Translations under genes and position numbers: made by a program
Shown here: one piece after another, positions 23,729 to 43,357 of the stretch
Layout: each line of letters begins with the position of its first letter
Numbering within the stretch: position 1 is the stretch's first letter
The notes under the pieces: generated by a model
What the model was told of the DNA's origin: nothing
Database searches by the model: none
Seen by the model: the letters and a program-made list of their open reading frames with translations, nothing else
From: Brytella acorum
GTDB taxonomy: Bacteria; Pseudomonadota; Alphaproteobacteria; Acetobacterales; Acetobacteraceae
Length of the DNA stretch: 64,000 bases
Direction: 5' to 3'
Assembly (NCBI RefSeq): GCF_029309905.1
Contig: NZ_JARBJP010000003.1
Coordinates: 186,001 to 250,000, forward strand

Positions 23729-24655
23729 TCAGGGCGTCCATCCAAAACGGGGAAACATCCATCCCAGGCGCTCAAGAATGATCGCGTTCATGGCCTCGGG
23801 GATCGTCGCACGCCAATCACCGACCATACCTTTGCGCAGGAAGGCCTGTTTCGCCTCCATGCCGCGCGCGCGCCCCCCGGAGAGACGGGAAAATGCGCTC
23901 CGCTCGATGCATCCCGCTACAATCTCCGTCGTCGACGGCAGAGCGAGAAAACCAAAGACGTCCGCAAGCACATCAACCGTATTGGCATGCAGCCCCTCAT
24001 AGGTGATCGACAGGCACGACGACGGGTCCTGTTCCTGAAGCGAGAACAGCGTGCGCGCGCCCTTATCCATCGGCTCGAGCGAATGGCGGATGAAGCCTTC
24101 CATCCGTGCGGAGAGATCTTCGTCCGGCTGATGGCGCTGCACGAACATGTGCCACGAAGATGCCAGTACATCGCGCGGATCACGCGAAATCACGATCAGC
24201 TTCGCATTCGGAAACTGGCGTTTCAGGCGCGGAAACAAAAAAATGTTTTCCGGCGTTTTTTCTCCGATGGCGCGACAGGACGCGCCGCCATCGGGCCGCG
24301 TCGAAAGCTGGCGCTGCAACGCCATCAGAATGCCCGTCGCCAGCATCGCATCCACATCATCTTCCGTTGGCAGGGGATAACCGCCGGTATGGGCGAAAAG
24401 ATTGACGTTCTTCTCTTTAAGAGCCTCAACCCGTTTCTGTGACATGGCGGTCAGCGGATGCAGAATCTGCTGCCAGAACAGTCCCTCCCCCATGCAGGAA
24501 GCTTCAGGATGCCCGTCGATCAGGTGCTGGATCCACGTTGTCCCCGAGCGCGGCGCGCCGCCGACGAAAAAAAGCTGACGACGCGCCAGATCTCCCAGTG
24601 CCGCAAGGCGATCGGCCGCCGACAGAGCCGACGCTGTGTCCTGATGGACGGTCAT
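23729..24655 (-). CDS. Sulfotransferase
   Basis: Transfers sulfate from PAPS to a hydroxyl or amine of a glycan, lipid or protein. The 308-residue protein has the PAPS 5'-phosphosulfate loop APRSGTTW (34-41) and the 3'-phosphate motif SRDPRDVLASSWHMF. These are the two marks of the sulfotransferase family; the C-terminal half has the family loop LSGGRARGMEAKQAFLRKGMVGDW in part. The ATG at 24655 overlaps the stop of the upstream 1349-residue gene by 4 nt, so expression is coupled. The partner's glycosyltransferase domain suggests a sulfated surface glycan or glycoprotein. Confidence 0.9.
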   Translation of the reverse strand: MTVHQDTASALSAADRLAALGDLARRQLFFVGGAPRSGTTWIQHLIDGHPEASCMGEGLFWQQILHPLTAMSQKRVEALKEKNVNLFAHTGGYPLPTEDDVDAMLATGILMALQRQLSTRPDGGASCRAIGEKTPENIFLFPRLKRQFPNAKLIVISRDPRDVLASSWHMFVQRHQPDEDLSARMEGFIRHSLEPMDKGARTLFSLQEQDPSSCLSITYEGLHANTVDVLADVFGFLALPSTTEIVAGCIERSAFSRLSGGRARGMEAKQAFLRKGMVGDWRATIPEAMNAIILERLGWMFPRFGWTP

Positions 24656-27600
24656 TCCGCCGCGACGTCCCCGGCGGCTGCCACGCACCGCCCCTCGATC
24701 GCGACCGCCAGAGCGTCGCGCACAGCATCGGCGCTGAAATTTTCAACGATATAGGCCGCTCCGGCGCCCCCAGCCCGACGGAACAGTGCCTCATCGCCGT
24801 GCAGGGCCACGATCCGGTCCGCCAGATCCTGCGCGTTGTCGCCAACCCATTCCCGAAGGATCGCGGGAAGAGCCAGCCCCTCCGCGGCGATGCCCGTCAT
24901 GACACAGGGAACTCCCGCGGCCATGCTCTCAAGCACTTTCCCCTTGACGCCCGCGCCATATCGCAACGGCGCCACGCTCAGGCGCACGCACGCCCACAGA
25001 GCGTCGAGGTCAGAGACATGCCCCATGATCTCGACGCGAGCCTGCGCGATGTCCCGCACACGCTGCGTCATACCCGCGCCCACCAGAAGACAGCGTATGG
25101 ACGGATCTTTCCGCCAGACGAGGGGCATCACACATTCAACCAGCCAGCAGGCGGCATCTTCGTTCGGTTGATGGCCGTAATTGCCGAGGAACATGATCCC
25201 CGAACGGTCCGAAAATGGAATTTCCGGATCGGCCTGTAACGGACGATGCTCCCATGGGGTCTCGTAAACCCGCGCGGCAGGGACTGAACGACGCAGGATG
25301 TCCGCTTCGACCGACGAATGAGTCAGCACGGCGTCCGCCTGCCAGGCCGCCGTGAATTCTTCGAGACGCGTGCGATTGCTCAGTCCCAGAAGTTCAGGGC
25401 GGCTTTCCGCCTCGGCCTGACGGCTCAGACGCAGATGATGCAGATCCGCGACGCTGTAGAGAATGCGCGCGCGCGGCATCGTCTGACGCGCCAGTTTCAT
25501 GTAGGCGCCCGCAGTCGAAATGCGGTGCATATAGACGAGGTCGAAACAGCCGGCCTGACGACGGAGAACTTCTTCGACGGTTCCGTAGACCGGCGCGCCG
25601 CAGATGCTCACACCGAGGAGACGCAGGATGTCGATGTCAGCGCCGCTGATTGCGGCCCCGAACCCCTCGGTCGATACAAAACTGATCGCATAACCCAGCG
25701 CCTGCAAAGCACGGATATGCGAAAGCAGCGCGTTCGATCCAGCATCCCGCGAGGGCGTCGGGAAACGGTCATCGACGACGAGAGCACGGCGAGCGGGCAT
25801 CGGCAGGCTGGCGGCGACCGGACCCAACGCGCGCTTGCGACGCTGGCTGCGATGGCGGGTTTCACGCCCGGCCTCGGCGTCGGCCATCTGCTGCTTCACG
25901 CGCTCGGCCTGAGCGAGCATGAACTCCAGAGCACGGGCGCGATCATCCTGGCTCGCAAGAGCTGAAAAGACGCGTGAAATGCTGCCGGCGAACGCTTCAT
26001 TGAAGGAATTCGCGGGCTCGACCACCATCGGAGCCCCCAGAAGCGGACGACCGGAATTCTCCACGAAGGCCTGAATGACATAGCGCTGCATCGGATCGAG
26101 AACGCCGTCGATATCGAGTTCGAATCCGTAACGTCCGGTTCCAATGCCCGAAGCCATCAGATCCGGTCGCAGGGCATTGGCCACCACGCGGGACAGCAGT
26201 CGTCCATTGGCAAACAGTCGGACGGCGAGAGCCTGCATGTCCTGCTCGGGATTCCAGGCCCAGCCGGAAATCGTCTTATGCGTGGCGCAGTCCAGATATC
26301 CCTGGCTGGCGCCAAGAATCTCCGGTTCGGGCGCCTCCATCAGTATCCCGGTGGTCCCTCTGCCATTGGCGGCTGCGCTGGAAGCGTCAAGAAACACGGG
26401 CGATCCCAGAACATCGGCCTGATCGACCACGTTCTGAACCTGAATGACGTGACGCAGATGTGGATCCAGCCCCCCAGGGACCGCAAATTCGAAACCGTAC
26501 CAGCCATCCCCCTGCCCGGAGGCATGAAGATCCTGGCGGTAGGCATTCGCGTCCACTGTTCCGATCGTGCGGCCGTTGTCGAGAATACGCAGACGGACAC
26601 GATTCTGCGTCAGCGTATCGCGTGCCCATCCCCGGATCACATCATGGGAAACGATATCCAGATGCCCACGGAACGAGACTGGCCAGAGACCGACCGGTGA
26701 TGCTCCGGTCGAACGGGCACGGTTCAGCAGACGCTCACGCAGACTTTCCAGTTCCTCACCGTCTTCAAGGCGTGGCGCGCAATAGACAGCCGGACGGGTC
26801 TCGGCATCCGGATAGAGCCGATGATAATCCTCGATATTGTGGAACATGCTGCGGCTGCCGTCGTCGACAAAGCTTTCGGAAGGCGCTCCATCGGCGAGGA
26901 TGACATCGTGAGTTTCGAGTTCCAGATGAAAGTAATCCACGCTGTCGATGGACGCGGCCTGAACGATGCTCAGTCCGTTCACCAGCGATATGGCCGGCAC
27001 GAGCTTGCCGTCGATGAACATCGCATGCAGAGGCGAGACGAACAGGTCACGACAGGGTACATGCTCGGCGAGCGCGCCAGCCCGGATCATGACGGGGAGG
27101 ATTTCGGCGTCGCCCGCCGCCATCGCGGCCGTATAGGTCCGGCGTCCGATCCAGCGCAGCGGACGCGCCTCGCCAGAGGCCGTCACCAGCGAATCGCCGA
27201 TGTTGAGATCCTCGACCGCGATTTCGCCTTGCTGGGTCATGATCCGTGTGCCACGGCAGTAACACGGCGTTCCATCGACCGTCAGGACGAGCGATCCGTC
27301 GGCGACGTCTTTGGAAAGGTGAAAATACAGGCCCTGATAATCGCCGGCGAGACTGACCGTATTCGTCACATCGCCCGCCTGAATGGTCAGGATATCCGTG
27401 CTGCCATCGAACGTCGCCGTAGCACCGGACACATAGGTCAGGGCGTCGAAATCGATCTTTCCTGACGCAAGAAGATGGGTATTGTTCGCCTGACCGCCAG
27501 CGGAAATAACCTCCATGCCACCCGATGAAATGACGACATCATCGGCCTCACCGCCCGACGACACGACGACATAGCCGCCAGCGGAAACGGCTGTGGCAGT

Positions 27601-28701
27601 GACCGCACCGCCTGCGGAGGCAATGATCATCCCGCCGGACAGTACCGTATCGCCGAGGCTCTGGGCGCCCGAGGACACGATTACCCAGCCATTGTCCTCA
27701 ATCGTCGCGCCTGAACCGAAACCACCGCTCTCGAGTGCCATCGTGCCGTTGGAGGTGACGATCATATCAAGTGCCGCGCCACCCGAAGACACCGTGACCA
27801 GGCCGCCGTCCTCGATCGTAGCGCCCTGCACGGCGCCGAGCGACAGCACATACATCTCTCCGCCCGACTGCACATCCGTCGCGGACGCCAGTCCCCCACC
27901 CGATACGATCTGCGCGGCGGCGGATCCAACCGTGGTGCCGAGCGCGACGCCTCCGGCGGAGATTGTCTGGAAAGCGAAAGAATTCAGAACGGCGTCAGAC
28001 GCTTTACCCATAACGACGCCGGAGGCGCCGGAAAGAAACTGAGTGGCGCTGGCGAAGCCGCCGCTGGAAACAACTTCAAGGCCACCGGCGGAAACGATCG
28101 TTGCGGTCCCGAAACCACCCGAATCCACAACGAGCGTGCCGCCCGACTGAACCTGCGCCTCGGTCACGACGCTGCCTGAAGAGGCCGTCAGAGTGCCCGA
28201 AACCTTGTCCATGAGGGTCTGCGCGCCAAATAAGACCGTGACCGCTCCACCGCCCTCAATCACGGTATCGGAAGCAAGACCTCCGCCTTCGATCAGGAGA
28301 CTGCCACCGGAGTGGATATCCGCAGCCGACGCGAACCCCCCTGAGGAAACCGAGAGCAGACCACCATTTTCAATAATCGCGGACTGCGCGACACCGTTCG
28401 AATTGACGTAAAGCTGTCCGCCCGACTGCACATCGGTCGCGGAGGCGGCTCCGCCTCCGGAAACATACTGGGCAGCACCGGAACCAACTTTGGTGCCGAT
28501 CGCCATACCGTTGGCGAAAACGGTTTCGGACGCCGATGCCATGAGCGTGGTGTGGGAAGCCATGCCATACACGGCGTCACTCGCATGCGCTTCAATGGTC
28601 GCATCCACAATCGAACCACCAGCCAAAACGACGAGGCTGTCACCTCCGGCAATATCCTGTCCGCTTAGGCTCTGGCCCGAACTGACGACCCGGTCACTCA
28701 T
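24652..28701 (-). CDS. Multidomain protein: beta-repeats + Hint + two repeated modules + GT4 glycosyltransferase
   Basis: A 1349-residue protein with no signal peptide. Residues 1-410 are AIDA/autotransporter-type repeats with a recurrent VxSGG core about every 20 residues. Residues 480-630 are a Hint (hedgehog/intein) domain: nucleophile region CYCRGTRIMT at 480-489, VEDLNIGDSLV, and SPLHAMF (556-562) for the B-block. Residues 675-772 and 800-896 are two copies of one module (GWARD/GWAWN, then YGFEF/YGFEL, then HVIQVQN/YVIQAFV). Residues 972-1349 resemble a GT4 glycosyltransferase (FLGNYGHQPNEDAACWL, VAPLRYGAGVKGKVLESMAAG). Hint domains can cleave themselves, so the repeat part could be released. 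It is coupled to the sulfotransferase downstream. The targets are unknown. Confidence 0.85.
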   Translation of the reverse strand: MSDRVVSSGQSLSGQDIAGGDSLVVLAGGSIVDATIEAHASDAVYGMASHTTLMASASETVFANGMAIGTKVGSGAAQYVSGGGAASATDVQSGGQLYVNSNGVAQSAIIENGGLLSVSSGGFASAADIHSGGSLLIEGGGLASDTVIEGGGAVTVLFGAQTLMDKVSGTLTASSGSVVTEAQVQSGGTLVVDSGGFGTATIVSAGGLEVVSSGGFASATQFLSGASGVVMGKASDAVLNSFAFQTISAGGVALGTTVGSAAAQIVSGGGLASATDVQSGGEMYVLSLGAVQGATIEDGGLVTVSSGGAALDMIVTSNGTMALESGGFGSGATIEDNGWVIVSSGAQSLGDTVLSGGMIIASAGGAVTATAVSAGGYVVVSSGGEADDVVISSGGMEVISAGGQANNTHLLASGKIDFDALTYVSGATATFDGSTDILTIQAGDVTNTVSLAGDYQGLYFHLSKDVADGSLVLTVDGTPCYCRGTRIMTQQGEIAVEDLNIGDSLVTASGEARPLRWIGRRTYTAAMAAGDAEILPVMIRAGALAEHVPCRDLFVSPLHAMFIDGKLVPAISLVNGLSIVQAASIDSVDYFHLELETHDVILADGAPSESFVDDGSRSMFHNIEDYHRLYPDAETRPAVYCAPRLEDGEELESLRERLLNRARSTGASPVGLWPVSFRGHLDIVSHDVIRGWARDTLTQNRVRLRILDNGRTIGTVDANAYRQDLHASGQGDGWYGFEFAVPGGLDPHLRHVIQVQNVVDQADVLGSPVFLDASSAAANGRGTTGILMEAPEPEILGASQGYLDCATHKTISGWAWNPEQDMQALAVRLFANGRLLSRVVANALRPDLMASGIGTGRYGFELDIDGVLDPMQRYVIQAFVENSGRPLLGAPMVVEPANSFNEAFAGSISRVFSALASQDDRARALEFMLAQAERVKQQMADAEAGRETRHRSQRRKRALGPVAASLPMPARRALVVDDRFPTPSRDAGSNALLSHIRALQALGYAISFVSTEGFGAAISGADIDILRLLGVSICGAPVYGTVEEVLRRQAGCFDLVYMHRISTAGAYMKLARQTMPRARILYSVADLHHLRLSRQAEAESRPELLGLSNRTRLEEFTAAWQADAVLTHSSVEADILRRSVPAARVYETPWEHRPLQADPEIPFSDRSGIMFLGNYGHQPNEDAACWLVECVMPLVWRKDPSIRCLLVGAGMTQRVRDIAQARVEIMGHVSDLDALWACVRLSVAPLRYGAGVKGKVLESMAAGVPCVMTGIAAEGLALPAILREWVGDNAQDLADRIVALHGDEALFRRAGGAGAAYIVENFSADAVRDALAVAIEGRCVAAAGDVAAE
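27472..28494 (-). repeat. SGG-rich beta-repeat array in the Hint-GT gene
   Basis: The first third of the gene encodes about 17 units of about 20 residues with the pattern SGGxxxVxSGGxAxxTxVxSGG. Units at about residues 70-150 and 255-340 are especially alike (both carry GTKVGS/GTTVGS then SATDVQSGG), pointing to duplication of a block of several units. Confidence 0.8.
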
Positions 28702-28980: not shown

Positions 28981-29610
28981 TCAGTCGCGCTCCCAGCGGT
29001 GGCCCGTGATAATATTGATCGCAATATCGGGCTGAATGAAAGGCCCCACCCCCTCGATATGCAATCGAACGGCCATAACAGGCAGCCCGTCGGGACAATG
29101 CGCCAACCAGTGGCCGTCACGCATCTGATAACGAAACGTCACGGTATCGACGTGATCCAGCAGAACGGCCTCGCGATAGGGTTCTTCACCTGCGAGGGCC
29201 TCGCCGCTGATCCACGGGCGCCATCGCATGACGAGCCGATGCGCCCTGTCGCGCCCTATCGTCACTTCCACAGGTTGCGGCTCACTTTTTTGCGAAAGCG
29301 ATACGACGCGTGGCCCGGGCCGCGATCCCGGATCGAGCGAAGAGACGAACAGGAAACGATCCTCACCGCAGAAAACAGGCGCGTCGACCTCCGGATCGCC
29401 AATCTGCGCTCTGGCGATCAGACGTCGCAAGGCGGCTTCCGCCGTCACCTGCTGTTCCAGCGCGGCGGAGCCCGCGACCTGCCGTTTCCAGGCTGCCAGC
29501 CCAAGATGCAGCCCTTCCCACAAGGCCAGTTGCAGGAGCGAAAAGACCACGAGAACGACGAGCACCTCCAGCAGCGTGAAGCCGCCATCCCCGGAGGTCT
29601 CGTGTTTCAT
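28981..29610 (-). CDS. gspJ: Type II secretion minor pseudopilin GspJ
   Basis: A minor pseudopilin at the tip of the type II secretion pseudopilus. The 209-residue protein has the prepilin cleavage site GG/FTLLEVLVVLVVFSLLQLAL near residue 10 and a family-typical GspJ C-terminal domain (FRYQMRDGHWL). Its ATG at 29610 overlaps the gspI stop by 4 nt. It is the last of the gspE-F-H-I-J operon on the minus strand; no gspK follows, as GspJ is normally accompanied by GspK. Confidence 0.82.
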   Translation of the reverse strand: MKHETSGDGGFTLLEVLVVLVVFSLLQLALWEGLHLGLAAWKRQVAGSAALEQQVTAEAALRRLIARAQIGDPEVDAPVFCGEDRFLFVSSLDPGSRPGPRVVSLSQKSEPQPVEVTIGRDRAHRLVMRWRPWISGEALAGEEPYREAVLLDHVDTVTFRYQMRDGHWLAHCPDGLPVMAVRLHIEGVGPFIQPDIAINIITGHRWERD

Positions 29611-30020
29611 GATCGACCATCCTCGCGCAAAGGGGCCGCGCGGAGCGTGGATAATACAAGCTTGCCCCGCCCATCGTGCCAGGTCACATGGACCGTAATC
29701 CTGAAGAGCGTTCCGGCTACGGCGTCGGGCGTATCGGATTGTTCGATGGGCACATCCGTTTCATGCCAATGGAATCCGCCCGCTTCTTCCCCCCCCCTCT
29801 CACCGGGCTGAAATGCCGGACGCGCCCGGGCGAGCGCCAGACGGGACCGGGCGACGCTGAGCGCCCGCTCATGCATCGCCGCGTCATGGACGGCGAAAAG
29901 CCCTTCTCCCGAGACCTCGAACATCACGATGAGCGCCACCCCCGCGATCACAAGCGCCACGAGCGTTTCAAGCAGGGTAAAGCCCTGCTCGTCCCGCGAT
30001 GGATCGACGCTAGTGTTCAT
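29607..30020 (-). CDS. gspI: Type II secretion minor pseudopilin GspI
   Basis: The 137-residue protein has a prepilin signal QG/FTLLETLVALVIAGVAL near residue 13 and a short soluble domain (ALSVARSRLALARARP), which fits GspI. The ATG at 30020 lies inside the end of gspH (11-nt overlap); the open frame upstream to 30245 reads only antisense-free gspH sequence in another frame. It is coupled to gspJ at its 3' end. Confidence 0.8.
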   Translation of the reverse strand: MNTSVDPSRDEQGFTLLETLVALVIAGVALIVMFEVSGEGLFAVHDAAMHERALSVARSRLALARARPAFQPGERGGEEAGGFHWHETDVPIEQSDTPDAVAGTLFRITVHVTWHDGRGKLVLSTLRAAPLREDGRS

Positions 30021-30456
30021 CGATCGAGACCCTGCCGGTGATGGGGTCGAAGCGCACACTCCCACGATGCGCACCACAGGTGAGCGACAGAACCTGGCGC
30101 GAAAACAGCCCGTCGGGACCCGCGAGGAATCGCACCTCCCTTGTCGTATCCGATTCGCCGTCCGACGCCAGAGTGACACAGCGCGGAAGGGATTCCCGGA
30201 CGGAATCAGGGCCCTCCGCGCTGACGACGTGATGCGCGGGATCAATCCCGAGCCGGACCGGACGCTGCGTCACGACCGCGGACTCCCGCGCCGCCCTCGC
30301 GATACGCGCCACGGTTCCCAACGCGCCGCGAAGATCCGTGGTGTCGCTCCTCCACGCCCGACCATGCGCCAGCAGAGCCAGCGCGAGTCCCAGAATGGCG
30401 AGAACCACCAGAATTTCCAGCAGCGAAAACCCGTCTTCCGCACGTCGCCCGGTCAT
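30010..30456 (-). CDS. gspH: Type II secretion minor pseudopilin GspH
   Basis: The 148-residue protein has the prepilin site DG/FSLLEILVVLAILGLAL near residue 9, and a GspH-like C-terminal half (VRLGIDPAHHVV, FDPITGRVSI). It overlaps gspF by 4 nt. It might be considered GspG, but it lacks the calcium-binding and length features of the major pseudopilin, so GspH is preferred. No GspG is encoded in the window. Confidence 0.75.
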   Translation of the reverse strand: MTGRRAEDGFSLLEILVVLAILGLALALLAHGRAWRSDTTDLRGALGTVARIARAARESAVVTQRPVRLGIDPAHHVVSAEGPDSVRESLPRCVTLASDGESDTTREVRFLAGPDGLFSRQVLSLTCGAHRGSVRFDPITGRVSIDEH

Positions 30457-31700
30457 GCCGCGAGATCGTTCAGACTGAGCATGGCCATGAGCAGCGCCGT
30501 CACGATCAGGGCAACGATGCCGCCCATGACGATCGTGATGACCGGAACCAGAAGCGCGACCAGCCTGTCCGTCGCGAGGCGGGCCTGCTCCTCGTGAATA
30601 TCGGCGGCTTTCAGCGCCAGCATCGACAGGCGGGCTGTTTCCTCGCCGAGATGAAGAAGTTCGGTCGTCGCGCGGGGGAAGACGCCGGTCGCCGCCAGCG
30701 GAGCGGCCAGACCGTCGCCTTCGCGCGCGGCGGCCAGCGCTTTTTCCAGCGCGGCTTTTCCGGCTTCGTTCTCCACGACTCCGAGCGTCATCTGCACGGC
30801 CTGAATCAGGGCGACGCCGTTTCCCGTCAACGTGCCCAGCGTGCGCGTCATCCGGCCAGCCATCACATCCGTGCAGATCGCACCCAGAACCGGCAGCCGC
30901 AGGAGCAGCCCGTCCATTTTCCGCCGAACGGCCAGAGAGCGCAGCGCAGTCCGGCCACAGACGAAAGCGACCAGCCCCACGCCGAGAATGAGCAGCCCGT
31001 CATTCTTGAGAAAGTCTCCCGCCGCGATGACCCCTCGTGTCAGCGGCGGCAGCCGGGCACCGTTTTCGGCAAACAGGGTCACGAATTGCGGCAGGATTTC
31101 CGTGAGCAGAAACACCGTCGCCACACAGGAGGCGACGGCCAGCAGCGCGGGATACACCATGGCGGAACGAATTTCGGAGGTCTGCCGGGCCTGACGCTCC
31201 AGATAGCGCGACAGTTCGTCCATGACGGTCGCCAGCGTGCCGCCCGCTTCGCCGGCACGCACCAGACCGACATACAGGCGCGAGAAGCTCTCCGGATGAC
31301 GACCAAGCGCGTCGGCGAGCGTGCCGCCTTCACGGACCGCGTCGCGGATCTGGCCGATGACGGCACGGGGAGCCTTGCGCGTCGTGACGTCCATCATGTA
31401 GCGCAGCGCACGGTCCAGATCGTGGGCGGCGCCCAGCATCATCGAAAGCTTGCGCGTGAAATCCACGAGATCCGCGTGTCGCAGCGCTTTGCGGCGTCCC
31501 AGAGACGCGCCGAAAATCCGCACGAACAGGGATGCTGCGACGGAACGTTTCGCAGCCTCTTCATCGGCCGGCGTCACCCGCAGAACGAACAGGCCGTCAC
31601 GTTGCAGCCTCAGCGCGACGTCGGCCTCAGACGGCAGGTCCACCCGCCCGTCAACGGTCGCGCCATCCGCGCCCATGCCGACATAATCGTAAAGCGGCAC
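30453..31700 (-). CDS. gspF: Type II secretion inner-membrane platform protein GspF
   Basis: GspF is the multi-span inner-membrane platform that works with the GspE ATPase. The 415-residue protein has two T2SSF domains, each with a helix-rich cytoplasmic part and hydrophobic segments (around 175-200, 220-240 and 385-410). Family motifs include FTRKLSMMLGAAHDLDRAL and LRLPVLGAI. The start is a GTG at 31700, just 6 nt after the gspE stop, with a GAGGG site. The MPLYDYVGMG N terminus matches the family. Confidence 0.9.
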   Translation of the reverse strand: MPLYDYVGMGADGATVDGRVDLPSEADVALRLQRDGLFVLRVTPADEEAAKRSVAASLFVRIFGASLGRRKALRHADLVDFTRKLSMMLGAAHDLDRALRYMMDVTTRKAPRAVIGQIRDAVREGGTLADALGRHPESFSRLYVGLVRAGEAGGTLATVMDELSRYLERQARQTSEIRSAMVYPALLAVASCVATVFLLTEILPQFVTLFAENGARLPPLTRGVIAAGDFLKNDGLLILGVGLVAFVCGRTALRSLAVRRKMDGLLLRLPVLGAICTDVMAGRMTRTLGTLTGNGVALIQAVQMTLGVVENEAGKAALEKALAAAREGDGLAAPLAATGVFPRATTELLHLGEETARLSMLALKAADIHEEQARLATDRLVALLVPVITIVMGGIVALIVTALLMAMLSLNDLAA

Positions 31701-31706
31701 GCGTTG

Positions 31707-33422
31707 CTATCCCTCGCCCCGCGCCGCGCGCAGGACTTCGTCGAGGGCCGTCTCACCGGCCAGGCAAGCCTTCAGCCCGGCAGAGAACATGGTCTCCATT
31801 CCGGCGGCGATGGCGGCGCGCTCGATCTCCGCGTCGCTCGCCTGCGCGAAGATCAGCTTGACGATGTCGGGCGTCGGGACGAGGAATTCCGCGATGGCCT
31901 GTCGTCCCCGATAGCCCGTGTGATGGCAGGACGGGCAGCCGCTCGGCTGCCAGAATCCTTCGCCCTCTTTCGGCGCGAGATCGAAGCGAGCCGCCAGCGT
32001 CGCGCTGTTCGGGTCCGGCACGCGACAGGAGGGACACAGTCTGCGCACGAGACGCTGGGCGAGCACGCCGCGCAGGACGGCGCTGAGCAGATAATCTTCC
32101 AGCCCCATGTCGCGCATGCGCGTGACCGCCGCGGCTGCGGAATTGGTGTGGAGCGTGGACAACACGAGATGGCCGGTCAGTGCCGCCTGGGCCGCGATCT
32201 GCGCGGTTTCGAGATCACGGATTTCGCCCACCATGATGACATCGGGGTCCTGACGCAGGATCGAGCGCAGCAGGGATGCGAATGTCAGGCCGATCTGCGG
32301 TTTGACCTGAAGCTGGTTGATCCCCTCGAGCTGATATTCCACCGGATCCTCGATGGTAATGATCTTGCGCGACACCGTGTTGATGCCGCTCAGCCCCGCA
32401 TAGAGCGTCGTCGTCTTGCCGCTGCCGGTCGGCCCCGTGACGAGAACGATCCCGTTCGGCTCGTCGAGCGCCATGCGCAGCCTCTCGATGATCGAAGTCG
32501 ACAGACCCAGACTGTCATAATCGAAGGTGACCGCGCTGCGATCGAGAATACGCATGACGATGCTTTCGCCGTGCATCGACGGCACTGTGGAGACGCGGAT
32601 ATCGACGTCGTGCCCGCGCACGGCGAGATTGATGCGCCCGTCCTGCGGCAGGCGCCGCTCCGCGATATCGAGGCGCGCCATGATCTTGATGCGCGAAATG
32701 ACCGCCGCCGCCACGCGCGCCGGATGCGTTTCCGCCTCGCTCAGAACGCCATCATAACGATAGCGGATGCGCAGATGGTTTTCGAAGGGCTCGACGTGAA
32801 TATCGGAGGCGCGCGTCTCCACGGCCTGGGACACCATCTGGTTCACCAGGCGGATAATGGGCGCTTCGGACGCCAGATCCTTCAGCCGGTCCGCGTCCTC
32901 GTCCACATCGCCGCCATGGCGCAGGTCGGATATTTCCTGCTCTTCGCGCGGCCATAACCGCTGTAACGCCGCCTCAAGTTCGATGGGCACCGCCACCATC
33001 GGCTCCACCGTCAGGCCGGTCGCAAGCTCGATCGCCCGGCGCACGAAGGCGTCGAGCGGATTGACCATGGCGAGATGCAGGATGCCGCCCTCAACACCCA
33101 ACGGCAGGCACCGCGCATGACGCAGAAACGCCACCGACAGATATTCCGGCAAAACCGGCTCATCGACCGCTGCCAGCGCGTCCGGCGGCACGAGAGGATC
33201 ACGGGTAAAGGCCGCATAGCTCGTCGCAAGCGCGCGTTCACTGAGCAGGCCGAGTTGCAGCAGAACGCCTTCCAGCGGCTGGCCGGTTTCCTCGGAAACG
33301 CGGCGCGCGCGTTCCATGGCCCGCGCCTCGCAATTTCCCTGCGCGATCAGGAAGCCCGCGAAGGCTTCGCTTTCAGAGACGGCCATCGTGCCAGTCGCGT
33401 TCTCGGCCTCCGGCCCGTTCAT
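31707..33422 (-). CDS. gspE: Type II secretion ATPase GspE
   Basis: GspE is the cytoplasmic hexameric ATPase driving pseudopilus assembly. The 571-residue protein shows N1/N2 domains, Walker A in VLVTGPTGSGKTTTLYAG, the Asp box IITIEDPVEYQ, Walker B in PDVIMVGEIRD, the His box, and the zinc four-Cys motif (CPSC and CPSC in RRLCPSCR and GCPSCHHTGYRGR). The ATG at 33422 has AGGTGA 6 nt upstream and is preferred over ATG 33452 and a much longer frame to 34133 that reads non-coding sequence. It is first in the operon and divergent from gspO. Confidence 0.93.
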   Translation of the reverse strand: MNGPEAENATGTMAVSESEAFAGFLIAQGNCEARAMERARRVSEETGQPLEGVLLQLGLLSERALATSYAAFTRDPLVPPDALAAVDEPVLPEYLSVAFLRHARCLPLGVEGGILHLAMVNPLDAFVRRAIELATGLTVEPMVAVPIELEAALQRLWPREEQEISDLRHGGDVDEDADRLKDLASEAPIIRLVNQMVSQAVETRASDIHVEPFENHLRIRYRYDGVLSEAETHPARVAAAVISRIKIMARLDIAERRLPQDGRINLAVRGHDVDIRVSTVPSMHGESIVMRILDRSAVTFDYDSLGLSTSIIERLRMALDEPNGIVLVTGPTGSGKTTTLYAGLSGINTVSRKIITIEDPVEYQLEGINQLQVKPQIGLTFASLLRSILRQDPDVIMVGEIRDLETAQIAAQAALTGHLVLSTLHTNSAAAAVTRMRDMGLEDYLLSAVLRGVLAQRLVRRLCPSCRVPDPNSATLAARFDLAPKEGEGFWQPSGCPSCHHTGYRGRQAIAEFLVPTPDIVKLIFAQASDAEIERAAIAAGMETMFSAGLKACLAGETALDEVLRAARGEG

Positions 33423-33531
33423 CGCGTCACCTGTTTCCGCGTCACGAATCATTTCGATCGTGTTTCGCCGGAACACTCTGCCCAACGGGCATTCCCTTGC
33501 CAAGACGCGACCCCGATGCGACGCTTGGAGG

Positions 33532-34287
33532 ATGCTCCCCGCCGCCCTGTCTGCCACGTTTCTGCCGATCGGACTTCTCGCCGCCTCCCCGTTCATCGGG
33601 AGTTTTCTCGGGACGATCATCCAGCGGCTGCCGGAAGGCCGAAACTGGACGACGGCGCGGTCATGCTGCGAACACTGCAAAACCACGCTGGGCAGCCGCG
33701 ATCTCGTGCCGGTGGTGAGCTTCGCCGTGCAGCGGGGCCGATGCCGATATTGCCATTGCGCAATCGATCCGTTCCACCTGGCTGTCGAAATCGCGGCGGC
33801 CCTGGTGGCGCTGGCCGCGTGGCTCGTCCATGGCGACGATCCTCCGGCCATGGCGCTTGCCTGCCTGCTCGGGTGGTGGCTGCTGGCGCTCGGCTGGATC
33901 GACCTGCGCACCATGCGTCTGCCGGATGCGCTGACGCTCCCTCTGATCGGAGCCGGAATTCTCCATGGCGGGCTGAACGGGCACGCGCTCGCGGCCCTCA
34001 TCGGTGCGTCTCTCACCTGGGCGACGATCGAACTGATCCGCGTCGCCTTCCTGAAATTCCGGAACAGGGCGGCGCTGGGCGGCGGGGACGTCAAGCTGCT
34101 CGCGGCCATCGGCGCATGGAACGCCCCGGACATGATCGGGCGGATCGTGCTCCTCGCCTGTGTTGGCGGTTTTCTGTGCTATGGCGTCATGGTCCTGCGC
34201 GGAAAAACGGGCGCCCTATGGTCGAGAGCCATTCCGTTCGGGCCTTTTCTGGCTGCGGCCTTTTTTCTTTGCTGGCTGATCTCATGA
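33532..34287 (+). CDS. gspO: Prepilin peptidase / N-methyltransferase GspO (PilD)
   Basis: Cleaves prepilin leaders at the inner membrane and methylates the new N terminus. The 251-residue polytopic protein has the zinc-binding CX2C pairs (CCEHC and CRYC) and the two active-site aspartates of the A24 family: Asp124 in GWIDLRTMRLPD and Asp186 in LGGGDVKLLAAIG. The GGAGG motif directly abuts the ATG at 33532, an unusually short spacing. The preferred start is the only ATG in a suitable place. It is divergent from gspE and overlaps the next gene by 4 nt. Confidence 0.9.
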   Translation: MLPAALSATFLPIGLLAASPFIGSFLGTIIQRLPEGRNWTTARSCCEHCKTTLGSRDLVPVVSFAVQRGRCRYCHCAIDPFHLAVEIAAALVALAAWLVHGDDPPAMALACLLGWWLLALGWIDLRTMRLPDALTLPLIGAGILHGGLNGHALAALIGASLTWATIELIRVAFLKFRNRAALGGGDVKLLAAIGAWNAPDMIGRIVLLACVGGFLCYGVMVLRGKTGALWSRAIPFGPFLAAAFFLCWLIS

Positions 34288-34697: not shown

Positions 34698-34988
34698 TCA
34701 GACACCGCATGATGATCTCCGCGGCAACAAACGTGACGCGCCGACCGGTGCGTGTCGTTTGCGCCGCTGGCGGACGCGGGCCGGATTCAGATGCTCCCGC
34801 CACGCATACGCACGACCGTGCAGGCGCGCCGCAATCGCCCTCGTTGCGGCCTTCCCTCGTGCCTGTCCGCCCCTGGCACCTGTCCGCCCCTGGTTCCGGC
34901 GCAGCCAGTCCGGCAGCGTCGGAACCGGGTCGAGATCATCGAGAACATGGCGCCCATCGCCGAGATAGAAGCGCACATCCTGTCGCAT
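34698..34988 (-). pseudogene. Decayed xanthine dehydrogenase small subunit (xdhA) fragment
   Basis: An open frame of 96 residues starts as XdhA does: VRFYLGDGRHVLDDLDPVPT, then DWLRRNQGRTG. It then leaves the family frame at a 17-nt tandem duplication. If one copy is removed, the frame reads GRTGTREGRNEGDCGA, the [2Fe-2S] loop of XdhA (normally EGCNEGDCGAC), with a first Cys changed to Arg. A second shift restores CTVVRMRGGS before a stop. The rest of xdhA and xdhB are absent. This is a clear remnant, not a functional gene; xdhC survives at the window's left end. Confidence 0.8.
34862..34893. repeat. 17-bp tandem duplication inside the xdhA remnant
   Basis: CCTGTCCGCCCCTGG occurs at 34862-34876 and again at 34879-34893, spaced 17 nt. 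The duplication shifts the reading frame of the remnant and probably inactivated or followed inactivation of the gene. Confidence 0.85.
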
Positions 34989-35149
34989 TCGCGTCTCCGT
35001 CTCACGACGTTTCGTCTCGCGTCACAGCACGACGAACTCTGGGACAGGAATATTCCAACAAATCCGGCACTTTTTCATCGACGGGAGCCTTGTTTCCGCC
35101 CCGATCTGCGCCTATGGCTCTCGCCACGTTACATCTGAAGAGGAACGAC

Positions 35150-35428
35150 ATGAAGTCCACCGACCTGATCGACCGTATCGCCGCCGCCACGGGCAGCACG
35201 AAGGCCGACGCCAAGACCGCGCTGGACACGGTCTTCGCAAGCATCGTCGAAGCCGCCACGCAGGGCGACGAAGTTTCCATACCGGGCTTTGGCAAATTCC
35301 AGGTCCGCAGCACGGCGGCGCGCCAGGGCCGCAACCCGAAAACGGGTGAGACCATCGAGATCGCCGCTTCCAAGAAGCTCGCATTCTCGCCGGCCAAGCA
35401 CGTCAAGGACGCACTGACCGTCAAGTAA
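35150..35428 (+). CDS. hup: HU-family DNA-binding protein
   Basis: HU bends and compacts DNA as a small dimer. The 92-residue protein has the family pattern KSTDLIDRIAAATGSTKADA, VSIPGFGKFQVR and the basic beta-arm RQGRNPKTGETIEI, at normal length. The ATG at 35150 has GAGGAA 6 nt upstream; longer in-frame starts to 34709 read the remnant region and are rejected. A strong terminator follows. IHF would normally have a different arm, so HU is preferred. Confidence 0.95.
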   Translation: MKSTDLIDRIAAATGSTKADAKTALDTVFASIVEAATQGDEVSIPGFGKFQVRSTAARQGRNPKTGETIEIAASKKLAFSPAKHVKDALTVK

Positions 35429-36780: not shown

Positions 36781-38358
36781 TTACGCCTTCACCTTCGGCT
36801 TGACCATGATCTCACGGCCGCGCAGCATGAAATCCCAGTACAGCAACGGCATGATCTTTTCCTTGAGGAACCACGCCAGCCACGTCGGCTTCTGTCCGTC
36901 CAACAGCCATTTCGGGAGCGTTGGCGTCAGGGCCCCGTTATAGGCGAACTCCGCCAGCACGATTTTGCCGCGCTCGACGGTCAGCGGACAGGCGCCGTAG
37001 CCGTCATATTCCGCGCCGACAGCCCTGTGGTCCAGCGTCGCGGCCACATTATAGGCCACGACGGGCGCCTGCTTGCGCACGGCGGCGGCCGTCTTCGCAT
37101 TCGATGTGCCCGCGCAGTCTCCCAGCGCAAAAACGTTCGCGTATGCCGTATGACGCAATGTCGTCGGATCAACGCTGACCCAGCCAGCGGCATCGGCGAG
37201 CTTGCTGTCACGCACGACATCCGGGGGAGCCTGGGGCGGCACGACATGCAGCATGTCGAATTTGCGTTCAATCGTCTCGGTGCCGCTATCGGTCGTTTTC
37301 TCGAACGTCGCGATCCTGCTGGCGCCATCGACCTTGACGAGCCTGGTCTTCGGATTGAACGCAATATTGTAGCGCCTGATGTACGCCATCAGGGCGGGCA
37401 CGAACGCCGCGACGCCGAACAGGCCGGGTGTGCAGGTATCGAATTCGACCGAGATGGCGTCTTTCACGCCGCGACGGCGCCATGCGTCGCATGACAGATA
37501 AGCCGCCTTCTGGGGGGCTCCGGCGCATTTGATCGGCATGGGCGGCTGCGTGAAGATCGCCGTGCCGCTGTTGAGGCCCTGCACGAGTTTCCACGTGTAG
37601 GGCGCGAGATCATAGCGGTAGTTCGACGTCACGCCGTTCTTTCCCAGCGTGTCCACCAGCCCTTCGATGCCAGCCCAGTCCAGCTTGATGCCGAGAGCCA
37701 CCACAAGGGTCGTGTATTCGACGCTCGAACCATCTCCGAGCCGCACCTGATTATGCTCCGGATCGAACCCCGTCACGGTCTCGCGGATCCAGTTCGCGGC
37801 CTGGGGGATGAGCGTGACTTCGGAGCGGCGCGTCTGCTCGGGCGTGAAAACGCCCGCGCCCACGAGCGTCCATCCGGGCTGATAGTAATGTTCGGTCGCG
37901 GGATCGATAATGGCGACGGTCGTGCCTGGACGCCGTTTCAGCAGGCTGGCCGCTGTCGCGATGCCCGCGGCGCCGCCGCCCGCGATCACGACGTCAAACC
38001 GGCGTGTCTCCGACTTCACGCTTTCGGATTTCCGGGCGAGTTCATAGAGCATGCTGGCGCGCGCGCCGCTGCGGCAATAGGCCAGAATCTTGCCCTGGAT
38101 CGTGTCGAGCGCGCGGCGCATGGCGTGCACGCTCTCCGGGCTCGGCGTCACGCCGGACTTCACCGGGATCGACACAAAGGCGAGGCCGAGCGCTTCGGCT
38201 TCGACACCGATCTCCGCCGCGCTGGGCTGCCCGGCCTCCTCGTTGTCGGGACGCACGCAGATGATTCCGGCGATACCGGCTTGCTGGATCTTCGGCAGGT
38301 CGTCTTTCGTGACCTGACCGGATGTCGCGAAGCGATCGTCGAGGAATTTGAACGTCAT
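36781..38358 (-). CDS. DUF442 sulfurtransferase-like domain fused to sulfide:quinone oxidoreductase-like flavoprotein
   Basis: Residues 1-115 form a DUF442/TIGR01244-type domain with the active loop YCRSGARASML (Cys in a CxxxxR loop). Residues 122-525 are an SQR-type FAD enzyme: FDVVIAGGGAAGIATAAS dinucleotide fold, YQPGWTLVGAG, PIKCAGAPQKAAYLS with one catalytic Cys, and NVFALGDCAGTSNAKTAAAV, the C-terminal FAD motif. SQR oxidises sulfide and passes electrons to quinone; the attached domain may handle persulfide. The ATG at 38358 has GGAGG about 8 nt upstream; an in-frame start to 38499 is rejected. I do not see an SQR Cys128 equivalent, so persulfide chemistry may differ. Confidence 0.85.
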   Translation of the reverse strand: MTFKFLDDRFATSGQVTKDDLPKIQQAGIAGIICVRPDNEEAGQPSAAEIGVEAEALGLAFVSIPVKSGVTPSPESVHAMRRALDTIQGKILAYCRSGARASMLYELARKSESVKSETRRFDVVIAGGGAAGIATAASLLKRRPGTTVAIIDPATEHYYQPGWTLVGAGVFTPEQTRRSEVTLIPQAANWIRETVTGFDPEHNQVRLGDGSSVEYTTLVVALGIKLDWAGIEGLVDTLGKNGVTSNYRYDLAPYTWKLVQGLNSGTAIFTQPPMPIKCAGAPQKAAYLSCDAWRRRGVKDAISVEFDTCTPGLFGVAAFVPALMAYIRRYNIAFNPKTRLVKVDGASRIATFEKTTDSGTETIERKFDMLHVVPPQAPPDVVRDSKLADAAGWVSVDPTTLRHTAYANVFALGDCAGTSNAKTAAAVRKQAPVVAYNVAATLDHRAVGAEYDGYGACPLTVERGKIVLAEFAYNGALTPTLPKWLLDGQKPTWLAWFLKEKIMPLLYWDFMLRGREIMVKPKVKA

Positions 38359-38444
38359 GATGCGGCGCCTCCAATCATCAGATGGATGCCCGAATGCCGC
38401 ACGACCGACCGTTGACGGCAGATCTGACAGGTCAACATCCGGGT

Positions 38445-38467
38445 TTCTTTCATTTTTTATGAAAGAA
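38445..38467. promoter_or_regulatory. Perfect 9-bp palindrome upstream of the SQR fusion gene
   Basis: TTCTTTCAT and ATGAAAGAA flank TTTTT, 87 bp before the SQR start. This is a strong operator candidate for a dimeric repressor such as an ArsR-type sulfide sensor (BigR/SqrR), as found upstream of related genes in Alphaproteobacteria. The regulator gene is not in the window. Confidence 0.6.
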
Positions 38468-38596
38468 TGAATGTTTTGGGGATAAGTTCCAACATGCACT
38501 CTGTCAAGTCACAGTACGGACAGAGGAGAGAGGCCTGAGGATCGCCCCTTCCCGCCTGCCAAGCCTCCCGAAACGGTTCATACTTTATGAAATTAT

Positions 38597-41914: not shown

Positions 41915-43357
41915 TCAAGCGTAAACTGCGACAGGTTCCGGCCGCGCCTCGGCTTCGAGATACGGTCCCGCCGCAAGAACTTCAATCGCGAGAAGACCGA
42001 CGCTGCCGGGCGCCCGATCGCCAAGGGATACCCAGGCATCGCCGTTCGTCCAGCGACAGGGTGTCCCCTCGACGACATCCCAACCGCGCGCCTGCGGTTC
42101 CTGCAGATGCCGATCCAGCGTCGACGCCTCGCCTGAATCGAAGAGCGTGATCTCTCCCACCAGCACGCCGAGTTGGCGTCGATCGTTCAGGAACGGCCCG
42201 GTCACGTCACTTGGGCGGCTGGTCCGCGAGACGATACGCACGGTCTCGATGCCCGGCGCGATCGTGAACATCACACGATTGCCGGCCTCGCGGGTCCGGA
42301 GAATGACCTGCCCCTGATCCGTTACGAGGTGCATGTCCGCGTCCTGCGTCGTGAGAACAGGCGCATCGATCGCTTCCAGACCGGCTTCGACGGCCCGGTT
42401 CTCGATCCGGCGATAAAGCGGCTCAACCGCGTCGCGTTCCACCACGAGCGGCGCGGCCGCGTCATCCGCCCACGAGCGGCGCGGGCCAGCGCTCAGCCTC
42501 ACCACGACATTATGATTCTGGCTCATGGCATCGCGATTGCCCGTATCGAGATAGCTCTCGGTCAGCATCCCATCCGCCATGATGATCGAGTGTTCGCGCG
42601 TCTCGACGTGGAAGTAGTCGTAAGCCGATACGGAACGATCGTAGAAAACAGAACGCCCGTTGACGAGCATGCGGGCCGGCACAAAGCCGCCGTCAAAGAA
42701 AAAGCAATGCTCCGGCGTCACCAGAAGATCCTTGTAAGGCACGCCTTCCGAGATCGCGTTGACCAGAATGCGGATCGGATATCCCGCTTCGTCATCAGGC
42801 AGGCCAGCGCGAACCTTTACATGACCTTTGCCCGCCCATACGACCGACCGCGACTGCGCGCGACCTTCGACATACGCCACGACCTCATCCCCGATCGCCA
42901 GCTCCTGAATTGCAACGTCGCCCGAGGGCGTGCGAATCATGGCATTTTCGAGAAAACAGATCGGGTGGCAGCCATGATGATGATGCGCCGGGCAGCAATG
43001 CTCGTGATGGTGGTGGTGATATCCGAAGGGATTGCCCTTGATGCTGATCGTGATGCAGTGACGGCCATCCGATATCTCGATCGTGGTGAAGCCGTTTCTG
43101 TAAATGACGTCGAAATAGGAGTTTTTGTTCCCGTGACCGTTCAAGGTATATATCGAGAAATTATTCGACAGCAATTCTGAAATATTCAATGTGAAAGACG
43201 ACTTGATATTATTCAGATCGACGGAAATACTTCCGCCGGAATGCCCGACCCTGGCTGTCGCCGATCCTGACGAAAACGCCGATATATCAACCGTATTTCC
43301 ATGATCTATTGTATAAGACCGCACATCTCCAGAAGACTTTCCATTATCATATGCCAT
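41915..43357 (-). CDS. Hint-domain protein with His/Cys-rich run before the nucleophile
   Basis: A 480-residue protein with no signal peptide. Residues 1-110 are a Ser/Asn-rich repeat-like region. Residues 113-134 are His/Cys-rich (YHHHHHEHCCP, then HHHHGCHPIC). The Hint domain starts at Cys134 in CFLENAMIRTPSGDVAI, with the B-block TPEHC (214-218) carrying the TxxH motif, and MADGMLTESYLDTG ends it near 270. Residues 300-480 are of unknown fold. Hint domains self-process like inteins or hedgehog. A likely metal-binding run adjacent to the nucleophile suggests metal control. The first ~350 bp and upstream DNA are AT-rich against the window, hinting at acquisition. Confidence 0.85.
   Translation of the reverse strand: MAYDNGKSSGDVRSYTIDHGNTVDISAFSSGSATARVGHSGGSISVDLNNIKSSFTLNISELLSNNFSIYTLNGHGNKNSYFDVIYRNGFTTIEISDGRHCITISIKGNPFGYHHHHHEHCCPAHHHHGCHPICFLENAMIRTPSGDVAIQELAIGDEVVAYVEGRAQSRSVVWAGKGHVKVRAGLPDDEAGYPIRILVNAISEGVPYKDLLVTPEHCFFFDGGFVPARMLVNGRSVFYDRSVSAYDYFHVETREHSIIMADGMLTESYLDTGNRDAMSQNHNVVVRLSAGPRRSWADDAAAPLVVERDAVEPLYRRIENRAVEAGLEAIDAPVLTTQDADMHLVTDQGQVILRTREAGNRVMFTIAPGIETVRIVSRTSRPSDVTGPFLNDRRQLGVLVGEITLFDSGEASTLDRHLQEPQARGWDVVEGTPCRWTNGDAWVSLGDRAPGSVGLLAIEVLAAGPYLEAEARPEPVAVYA

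Follow-up and report, generated by a model that had tools for sequence, protein, structure and literature searches.

Self-cutting Hint domains and the cytosolic glycosylation of adhesins are each already known. In reports on bacterial intein-like (BIL) domain types (PMC7765530) and on Hedgehog (PMC9163320), a first cysteine (Cys1) and a TxxH motif without a C-terminal His-Asn pair denote N-terminal thioester chemistry, and Asp303 is given as the base specific to Hedgehog (PMC9163320). A further report (PMC4358343) describes bacterial autotransporter heptosyltransferase (BAHT) enzymes of the TibC type that heptosylate serines of the AIDA-I and TibA passengers. Here we describe a gene of Brytella acorum (Acetobacteraceae) that encodes AIDA-type repeats, a Hint_2 domain, two copies of a module that we call GWA, and a GT4 glycosyltransferase (GT) in one chain. 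The gene lies in a 64,000-nucleotide stretch of contig NZ_JARBJP010000003.1 (positions 186,001 to 250,000; hereafter the window). This combination of known parts is real and recurrent. It is not described in the open-access literature that we searched, with most subscription papers and preprints outside that coverage.

The open reading frame (ORF) of the fusion begins with ATG and has no internal stops, and domain searches agreed with an earlier note, made from the sequence alone, that had placed all of these parts in a single protein (Table 1). In the N-terminal region, the AIDA family (PF16168) matched six stretches (E 2e-20, Pfam), and TIGR04415, named "O_hepto_targRPT," matched 10 (E 6.6e-38, 128.5 bits versus a cut-off of 30, NCBIfam). 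The Hint_2 match scored 154.2 bits, above the curated cut-off of 28.4. Neither GWA module (this name and "LADG," used below, were coined in this analysis) matched a Pfam family in the domain scan of the fusion. Modeled alone, GWA module 2 reached a mean predicted local distance difference test score (pLDDT) of 91; a Foldseek search of the fold gave nothing under E 0.001, and the best matches, to the Nir2 C-terminal domain and Ig/FN3-like chains (Z ≤6.8), were too weak to name it. At residues 1167 to 1300, Glyco_trans_1_4 (PF13692) matched with E 5.5e-21 (75.8 bits versus 27, Pfam). TIGR03087, the PEP-CTERM/XrtA glycosyltransferase family, gave E 1.7e-26 but 93.3 bits, short of its curated cut-off of 316.65. 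The predicted structure of the GT4 part is a GT-B fold whose best structural match was TarM (7qd7; Z 30.5, root-mean-square deviation 3.1, 344 residues aligned); many other GT4 enzymes scored nearly as high, so the match implies no shared function. SdgB and GtfC were within the first 50 Foldseek rows for the fusion model, a search that, like VIA with the whole model, effectively probed the GT part only. The earlier note had also reported the lack of a signal peptide, and we found no signal-like stretch at the N terminus by a crude hydrophobicity scan, which is no dedicated signal peptide predictor; the best five 19-residue windows started at 567, 1016, and 1260 to 1264. With no barrel family detected by Pfam, no signal-like start, and a GT4 domain as its C terminus, the protein does not have the makeup of an AIDA-type autotransporter (type Va secretion).

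Table 1. Coordinates of the fusion gene, its parts, and related genes in the window
Feature	Position	Strand	Basis or remark
AIDA repeats - Hint_2 - GWA - GWA - GT4 fusion, 1349 aa	24652..28701	-	ORF, domain profiles, recurrence
N-terminal cargo, AIDA-type/TIGR04415 strand-loop-strand repeats, residues 1-440	27382..28701	-	Pfam, NCBIfam
Hint_2 domain, residues 478-613	26863..27270	-	PF13403, E 4.1e-45
Cys480, predicted Hint nucleophile (Cys1)	27262..27264	-	Invariant in 31/31 fusions of alignment A1
SPLH, residues 556-559, block B S/TxxH	27025..27036	-	Ser556 and His559 invariant in 31/31 fusions
Extension C-terminal to Hint, containing a conserved CAPR, residues ~626-666	26704..26826	-	Alignments of relatives
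GWA module 1, residues ~702-775	26377..26598	-	Recurrence in relatives
GWA module 2, residues ~826-904	25990..26226	-	Recurrence in relatives, fold model
GT4 glycosyltransferase domain, residues ~972-1331	24709..25788	-	Pfam, NCBIfam, fold comparison
Sulfotransferase (Sulfotransfer_3)	23729..24655	-	Pfam; in-frame ATG overlaps fusion TGA (ATGA)
Another Hint_2 protein (480 aa), with a C-terminal LADG module and without GT	41915..43357	-	Related, outside operon

The earlier note knew of no standard system that joins these parts; a survey of the family showed that the architecture is not a one-off. A continuous Hint-to-GT alignment (query residues 468 to 1349) was found in at least 30 of 397 family genomes, the genome of the window included; seven of those listed alignments contain an internal stop, and at least 23 of the 397 genomes have one free of stops. 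Among the best 80 of 575 relatives from a scan of genome contigs, fusions occurred in named strains of Gluconobacter and Acetobacter and in Acidisoma and Tanticharoenia, and split pairs, with the parts in two adjacent genes, occurred in Asaia, Roseomonas, Neokomagataea, Acidisoma, and Acetobacter. The worry that a frameshift separates the parts is thereby removed. In the split forms, the two frames overlap or sit within ~100 bases of each other, and the break mostly falls between GWA modules 1 and 2; the exceptions are L134, broken just after the Hint extension, and L133, broken after both GWA modules. At L119, L122, and L123, one in-frame stop codon divides the cargo-Hint frame from the GT frame. 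The front parts differ widely. In ORFs of 4317 and 4637 aa, AIDA matches extend over up to ~3,800 residues, and a VWD-bearing giant is the cargo of split form L120. In one AIDA-less group, all four scanned fusions (L109, L110, L112, and L113) carry an Exo_endo_phos nuclease-like cargo, and the N-terminal parts of four other fusions without AIDA matches (L101, L103, L115, and L124) had no match to any Pfam family. Hint-GWA-GWA-GT4 is thus a recurring module of the Acetobacteraceae, joined to differing front parts, and the nuclease-like cargo suggests that it may act as a general cargo unit. With such non-AIDA cargo, the repeats are not the sole partner of this unit.

To judge the Hint domain, we compared its residues across relatives. 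The earlier note had proposed Cys480 and Cys482 as the sites to mutate in a cleavage test; Cys480, the predicted nucleophile, is invariant in alignment A1, whereas Cys482 is frequently substituted in relatives (CFL, CYL). Taken alone, the invariance of Cys480, Ser556, and His559 is weak evidence, since 90 of the 930 columns of this alignment are invariant. The 53 distinct fused ORFs, however, differ by the length of open frame ahead of Hint: where it spans 100 residues or more, all 49 have Cys1 and S/TxxH intact, and where it is shorter, one of four does (Fisher p 1.7e-4; the rows are not phylogenetically independent, and two of the four short ones are sisters). The three short ORFs that lost Hint residues are the Tanticharoenia fusion L183 and two LADG fusions; the sole intact short ORF (L130) overlaps, in a different frame, a Hint-GT ORF that precedes it. 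This contrast indicates that the Hint residues are retained where there is cargo to cut, and conservation of the nucleophile is in line with the self-processing that the earlier note had proposed. By eye, in alignment A2, the His-Asn C-terminal block of inteins and its nucleophile were not found, and GAPSES stands in their place. Only in its first block did the Hint profile of relatives match a BIL domain (2lwy, E 4.4e-5) and the PI-SceI intein (1gpp, E 0.0038). Because the intein C-terminal block is absent, N-terminal cleavage alone is expected for the fusion Hint.

The GT domains gave a further view of how the unit arose. All GWA-type fused and split GTs, 25 rows of a 52-row GT tree, fit one clade (approximately unbiased [AU] test, p 0.68), and the clade enlarged by two Hint-LADG-GT4 fusions (L068 and L235) was rejected (AU p 0.0026), with the groups defined after a tree had been inspected. 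This rejection suggests that Hint_2 was fused with this GT4 family on a second occasion, via a LADG C-terminal module. This module ends other Hint_2 proteins, among them the second one of the window, which has a His-rich stretch ahead of its Hint domain. LADG also occurs in the GT2 glycosyltransferase of L059, a protein with GWA and LADG modules that overlaps a GT4 frame. In a quick 55-row GT tree with support from the Shimodaira-Hasegawa-like approximate likelihood ratio test only, the fused and split states required six changes, and the starred branches forced at least three for the split label.

We also examined genes for sugar and sulfate transfer. The genome of the window encodes one BAHT above the cut-off (573.8 bits versus 200), outside the window at G000:C3:292307-293467. 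In a tally made by hand over 31 fetched fused genomes, BAHT was present in 12 of 12 with AIDA in the fusion, in seven of 19 that lack AIDA there, and in 117 of all 397 family genomes (Fisher-tested, with relatives that are not independent). AIDA was scored at E 1e-3; the stricter E 1e-5 missed one of these 12 (G372). Of the 20 BAHT loci selected and fetched, nine have an ORF with AIDA or Hint next to the BAHT gene. BAHT directly precedes the fusion in L102 and L170 and is a divergent neighbor in L116; in L100 the order is fusion, sulfotransferase, BAHT, and, immediately next, another AIDA-Hint gene. The run BAHT, AIDA/Hint/GWA/GT, sulfotransferase is found in Gluconobacter sphaericus (L170) and in G240 (L102). 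A sulfotransferase directly follows the fusion in six distinct genomes (that of the window, G080, G240, G376, G. sphaericus, and Tanticharoenia), and in a seventh, G381 (L163), it is preceded by a GT-less BAHT-AIDA-Hint run, with a short LADG frame in between; its identity was established by Pfam in four of these seven genomes. The stop of the fusion and the start of the sulfotransferase overlap as ATGA in the window and in L100 and as TAATG in L104 and L170. Beyond the sulfotransferase in the window is a pro-kumamolisin/S8 peptidase.

Three candidate export routes were considered. About 280 bases upstream of the fusion, on the same strand, are two pseudopilin-like genes, gspF, and gspE. Type II secretion system (T2SS) genes of this genome form two clusters: E, F, and the pseudopilins beside the fusion (window 28981-34133), and K, D, and G at G000:C3:298636-304889. 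The gspK gene is ~5 kb from the BAHT of this genome, and gspD and gspG are farther off, at up to 11 kb; an ORF next to this BAHT, considered as gspD, proved by Pfam to be DsbD. The T2SS was rejected as the exporter, as a clear GspD relative (E < 1e-100) turned up in no more than half (13) of 26 fused genomes. For the six members of group g79 the search gave no GspD relative or a 35-residue fragment, and gspE/gspF were found at no other fetched fusion locus. At L069, T2SS E/F genes stand beside a Hint-free GT2-GT4 protein of another family. Elsewhere in the same genome (G000:C1:66980-84951; L142 and L135), an AIDA-Hint gene without GT (1213 aa) is preceded by genes, all on a single strand, for HlyD, an ABC ATPase, four MacB/FtsX-type permeases, and TolC, and in G078 (L132/L144) a similar set precedes a split Hint/GT pair. 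This HlyD-ABC-FtsX-TolC set was likewise rejected as the exporter, with FtsX relatives in only nine of 29 genomes searched. For the type I secretion system (T1SS), PrtD-like ABC genes were found in 26 of 26 fused genomes, none above the cut-off; the same search was positive in 13 of 14 control genomes and is therefore uninformative.

The reading that we favor, tentatively and at somewhat less than even confidence, is that the locus makes a glycosylated, auto-processed surface protein and that Hint separates the cargo from the GT. Residues 1 to 479 would form an AIDA-type beta-helical surface protein. Before release, glycosylation would take place in the cytosol, where the BAHT encoded elsewhere in the genome would add heptose to serines of the repeats and the fused GT4, which the GWA modules would hold near its substrate, would add another sugar. 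The glycan or the protein would probably be sulfated by the sulfotransferase from the overlapping gene. Through Cys480 and SPLH, Hint_2 would then catalyze an N-S acyl shift to a thioester, releasing the cargo from Hint-GWA-GWA-GT4; the cut would leave the GT behind, and the repeat part would be exported. The data establish the architecture, its recurrence, the retention of the Hint residues where there is cargo, and the sugar genes nearby; the cleavage, the sugar transfer, the order of steps, and the export are inferred. The earlier note had envisioned an autoprocessed, self-glycosylating surface product. The retained Hint residues and the association with heptosyltransferase and sulfotransferase genes bear out much of this, but self-glycosylation is one option only, and the first sugar on the AIDA-type repeats is more likely added in trans by the BAHT of this genome. 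Several observations weigh against the favored model. In 28 of 31 fusions a Pro, a residue not known to promote an N-S acyl shift, precedes Cys1. No exporter common to all carriers emerged from the three routes checked (T2SS, HlyD-ABC-FtsX-TolC, and T1SS). The BAHT gene of this genome is not adjacent to the fusion, and 11 of the 20 BAHT loci had no detected AIDA or Hint ORF. Since BAHT is missing from 12 of the 31 fused genomes fetched and the GT unit also carries non-AIDA cargo (the nuclease, and the VWD giant in split L120), heptosylation is not the general role of the unit. Finally, the GT4 comes from a broad family in which enzymes lacking Hint often join GT2 and GT4.

This last point bears on a rather unlikely alternative, in which Hint does cut but the GT4 targets a surface polysaccharide instead of the cargo, the fusion merely co-producing both. 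GT2 joined to GT4 is usual in polysaccharide synthesis, and all three Hint-free relatives scanned (L063, L069, and L207) are long proteins that join the two, with L059 pairing a GT2 protein with a GT4 frame. However, the GT is repeatedly joined to or adjoining the cargo-Hint gene, and the BAHT and sulfotransferase neighbors point to the AIDA protein. The Pro ahead of Cys1 would also suit an inert Hint that serves in folding or docking, so that the whole fusion displays its GT on the surface or stays cytosolic. We give this little credence, because all 49 cargo-bearing fusions keep Cys1 and S/TxxH, whereas three of the four that lack cargo do not.

If the thioester does form, its fate could differ from simple release. 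As in the Hog part of Hedgehog, a hydroxyl of a glycan that GWA-GT4 holds or makes might attack the Cys480 thioester and leave the C terminus of the cargo ester-linked to a cell surface polysaccharide. The motifs permit only N-terminal thioester chemistry, one C-terminal unit follows varied cargos, and the parts behind Hint are common to glycosyltransferases (GWA with Hint-free GTs, LADG with a GT2 protein). We nevertheless regard this transfer as improbable: a counterpart of Asp303 was not identified, with no rigorous search made for one, the GT of the split forms is outside the chain, and the two Hint-LADG-GT4 fusions and L183, having lost the Hint residues, would be incapable of it. Marginally more improbable still is the wider proposal that Hint-GWA-GWA-GT4 is a bacterial counterpart of Hog, a general C-terminal unit of the Acetobacteraceae that cuts diverse exported cargos at Cys1 and passes their C termini to a sugar acceptor bound or built by GT4, yielding protein-glycan conjugates. 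That the fusion is an assembly or read-through artifact joining two genes has a negligible chance. Split forms do exist, some divided by a single in-frame stop, and seven of the continuous alignments contain a stop, but recurrence, in stop-free alignments and in named strains, leads us to reject it.

Two further ORFs of the window stood out: a BLH-phosphatase domain and a pyridine nucleotide-disulfide oxidoreductase share a single ORF at 36781-38499, and at 34709-35428 an HU-type DNA-binding domain follows an extra N-terminal region of ~145 residues.

Together, these data place Hint and adhesin-type glycosylation parts in one unit that recurs, with large and varied cargos, across a family used in food and materials. 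They offer a testable answer to the role of Acetobacteraceae Hint_2 proteins, point to a new place to seek surface proteins that carry heptose or sulfate, and may yield a natural tool for coupling protein to sugar. Like BIL domains and the Hog-Hint of Hedgehog, the fusion has Cys1 and S/TxxH, no His-Asn block, predicted N-terminal cleavage, and variable upstream cargo. In contrast to them, its Hint domain is followed by GWA modules and GT4 instead of a sterol region, and solved Hint domains match it over the first block only. With the AIDA-I/TibA autotransporters and their BAHT enzymes (TibC and AAH) it shares heptosylation-target repeats and a BAHT in the same genome, adjoining in some relatives; unlike them, it has no detected beta-barrel or signal-like start and has a C-terminal Hint and GT4, with a sulfotransferase gene behind. 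The fused GT4 resembles TarM, SdgB, and GtfC, which act in teichoic acid or adhesin glycosylation, in its GT-B fold, at an identity of ~8 to 13%, whereas those three are separate enzymes.

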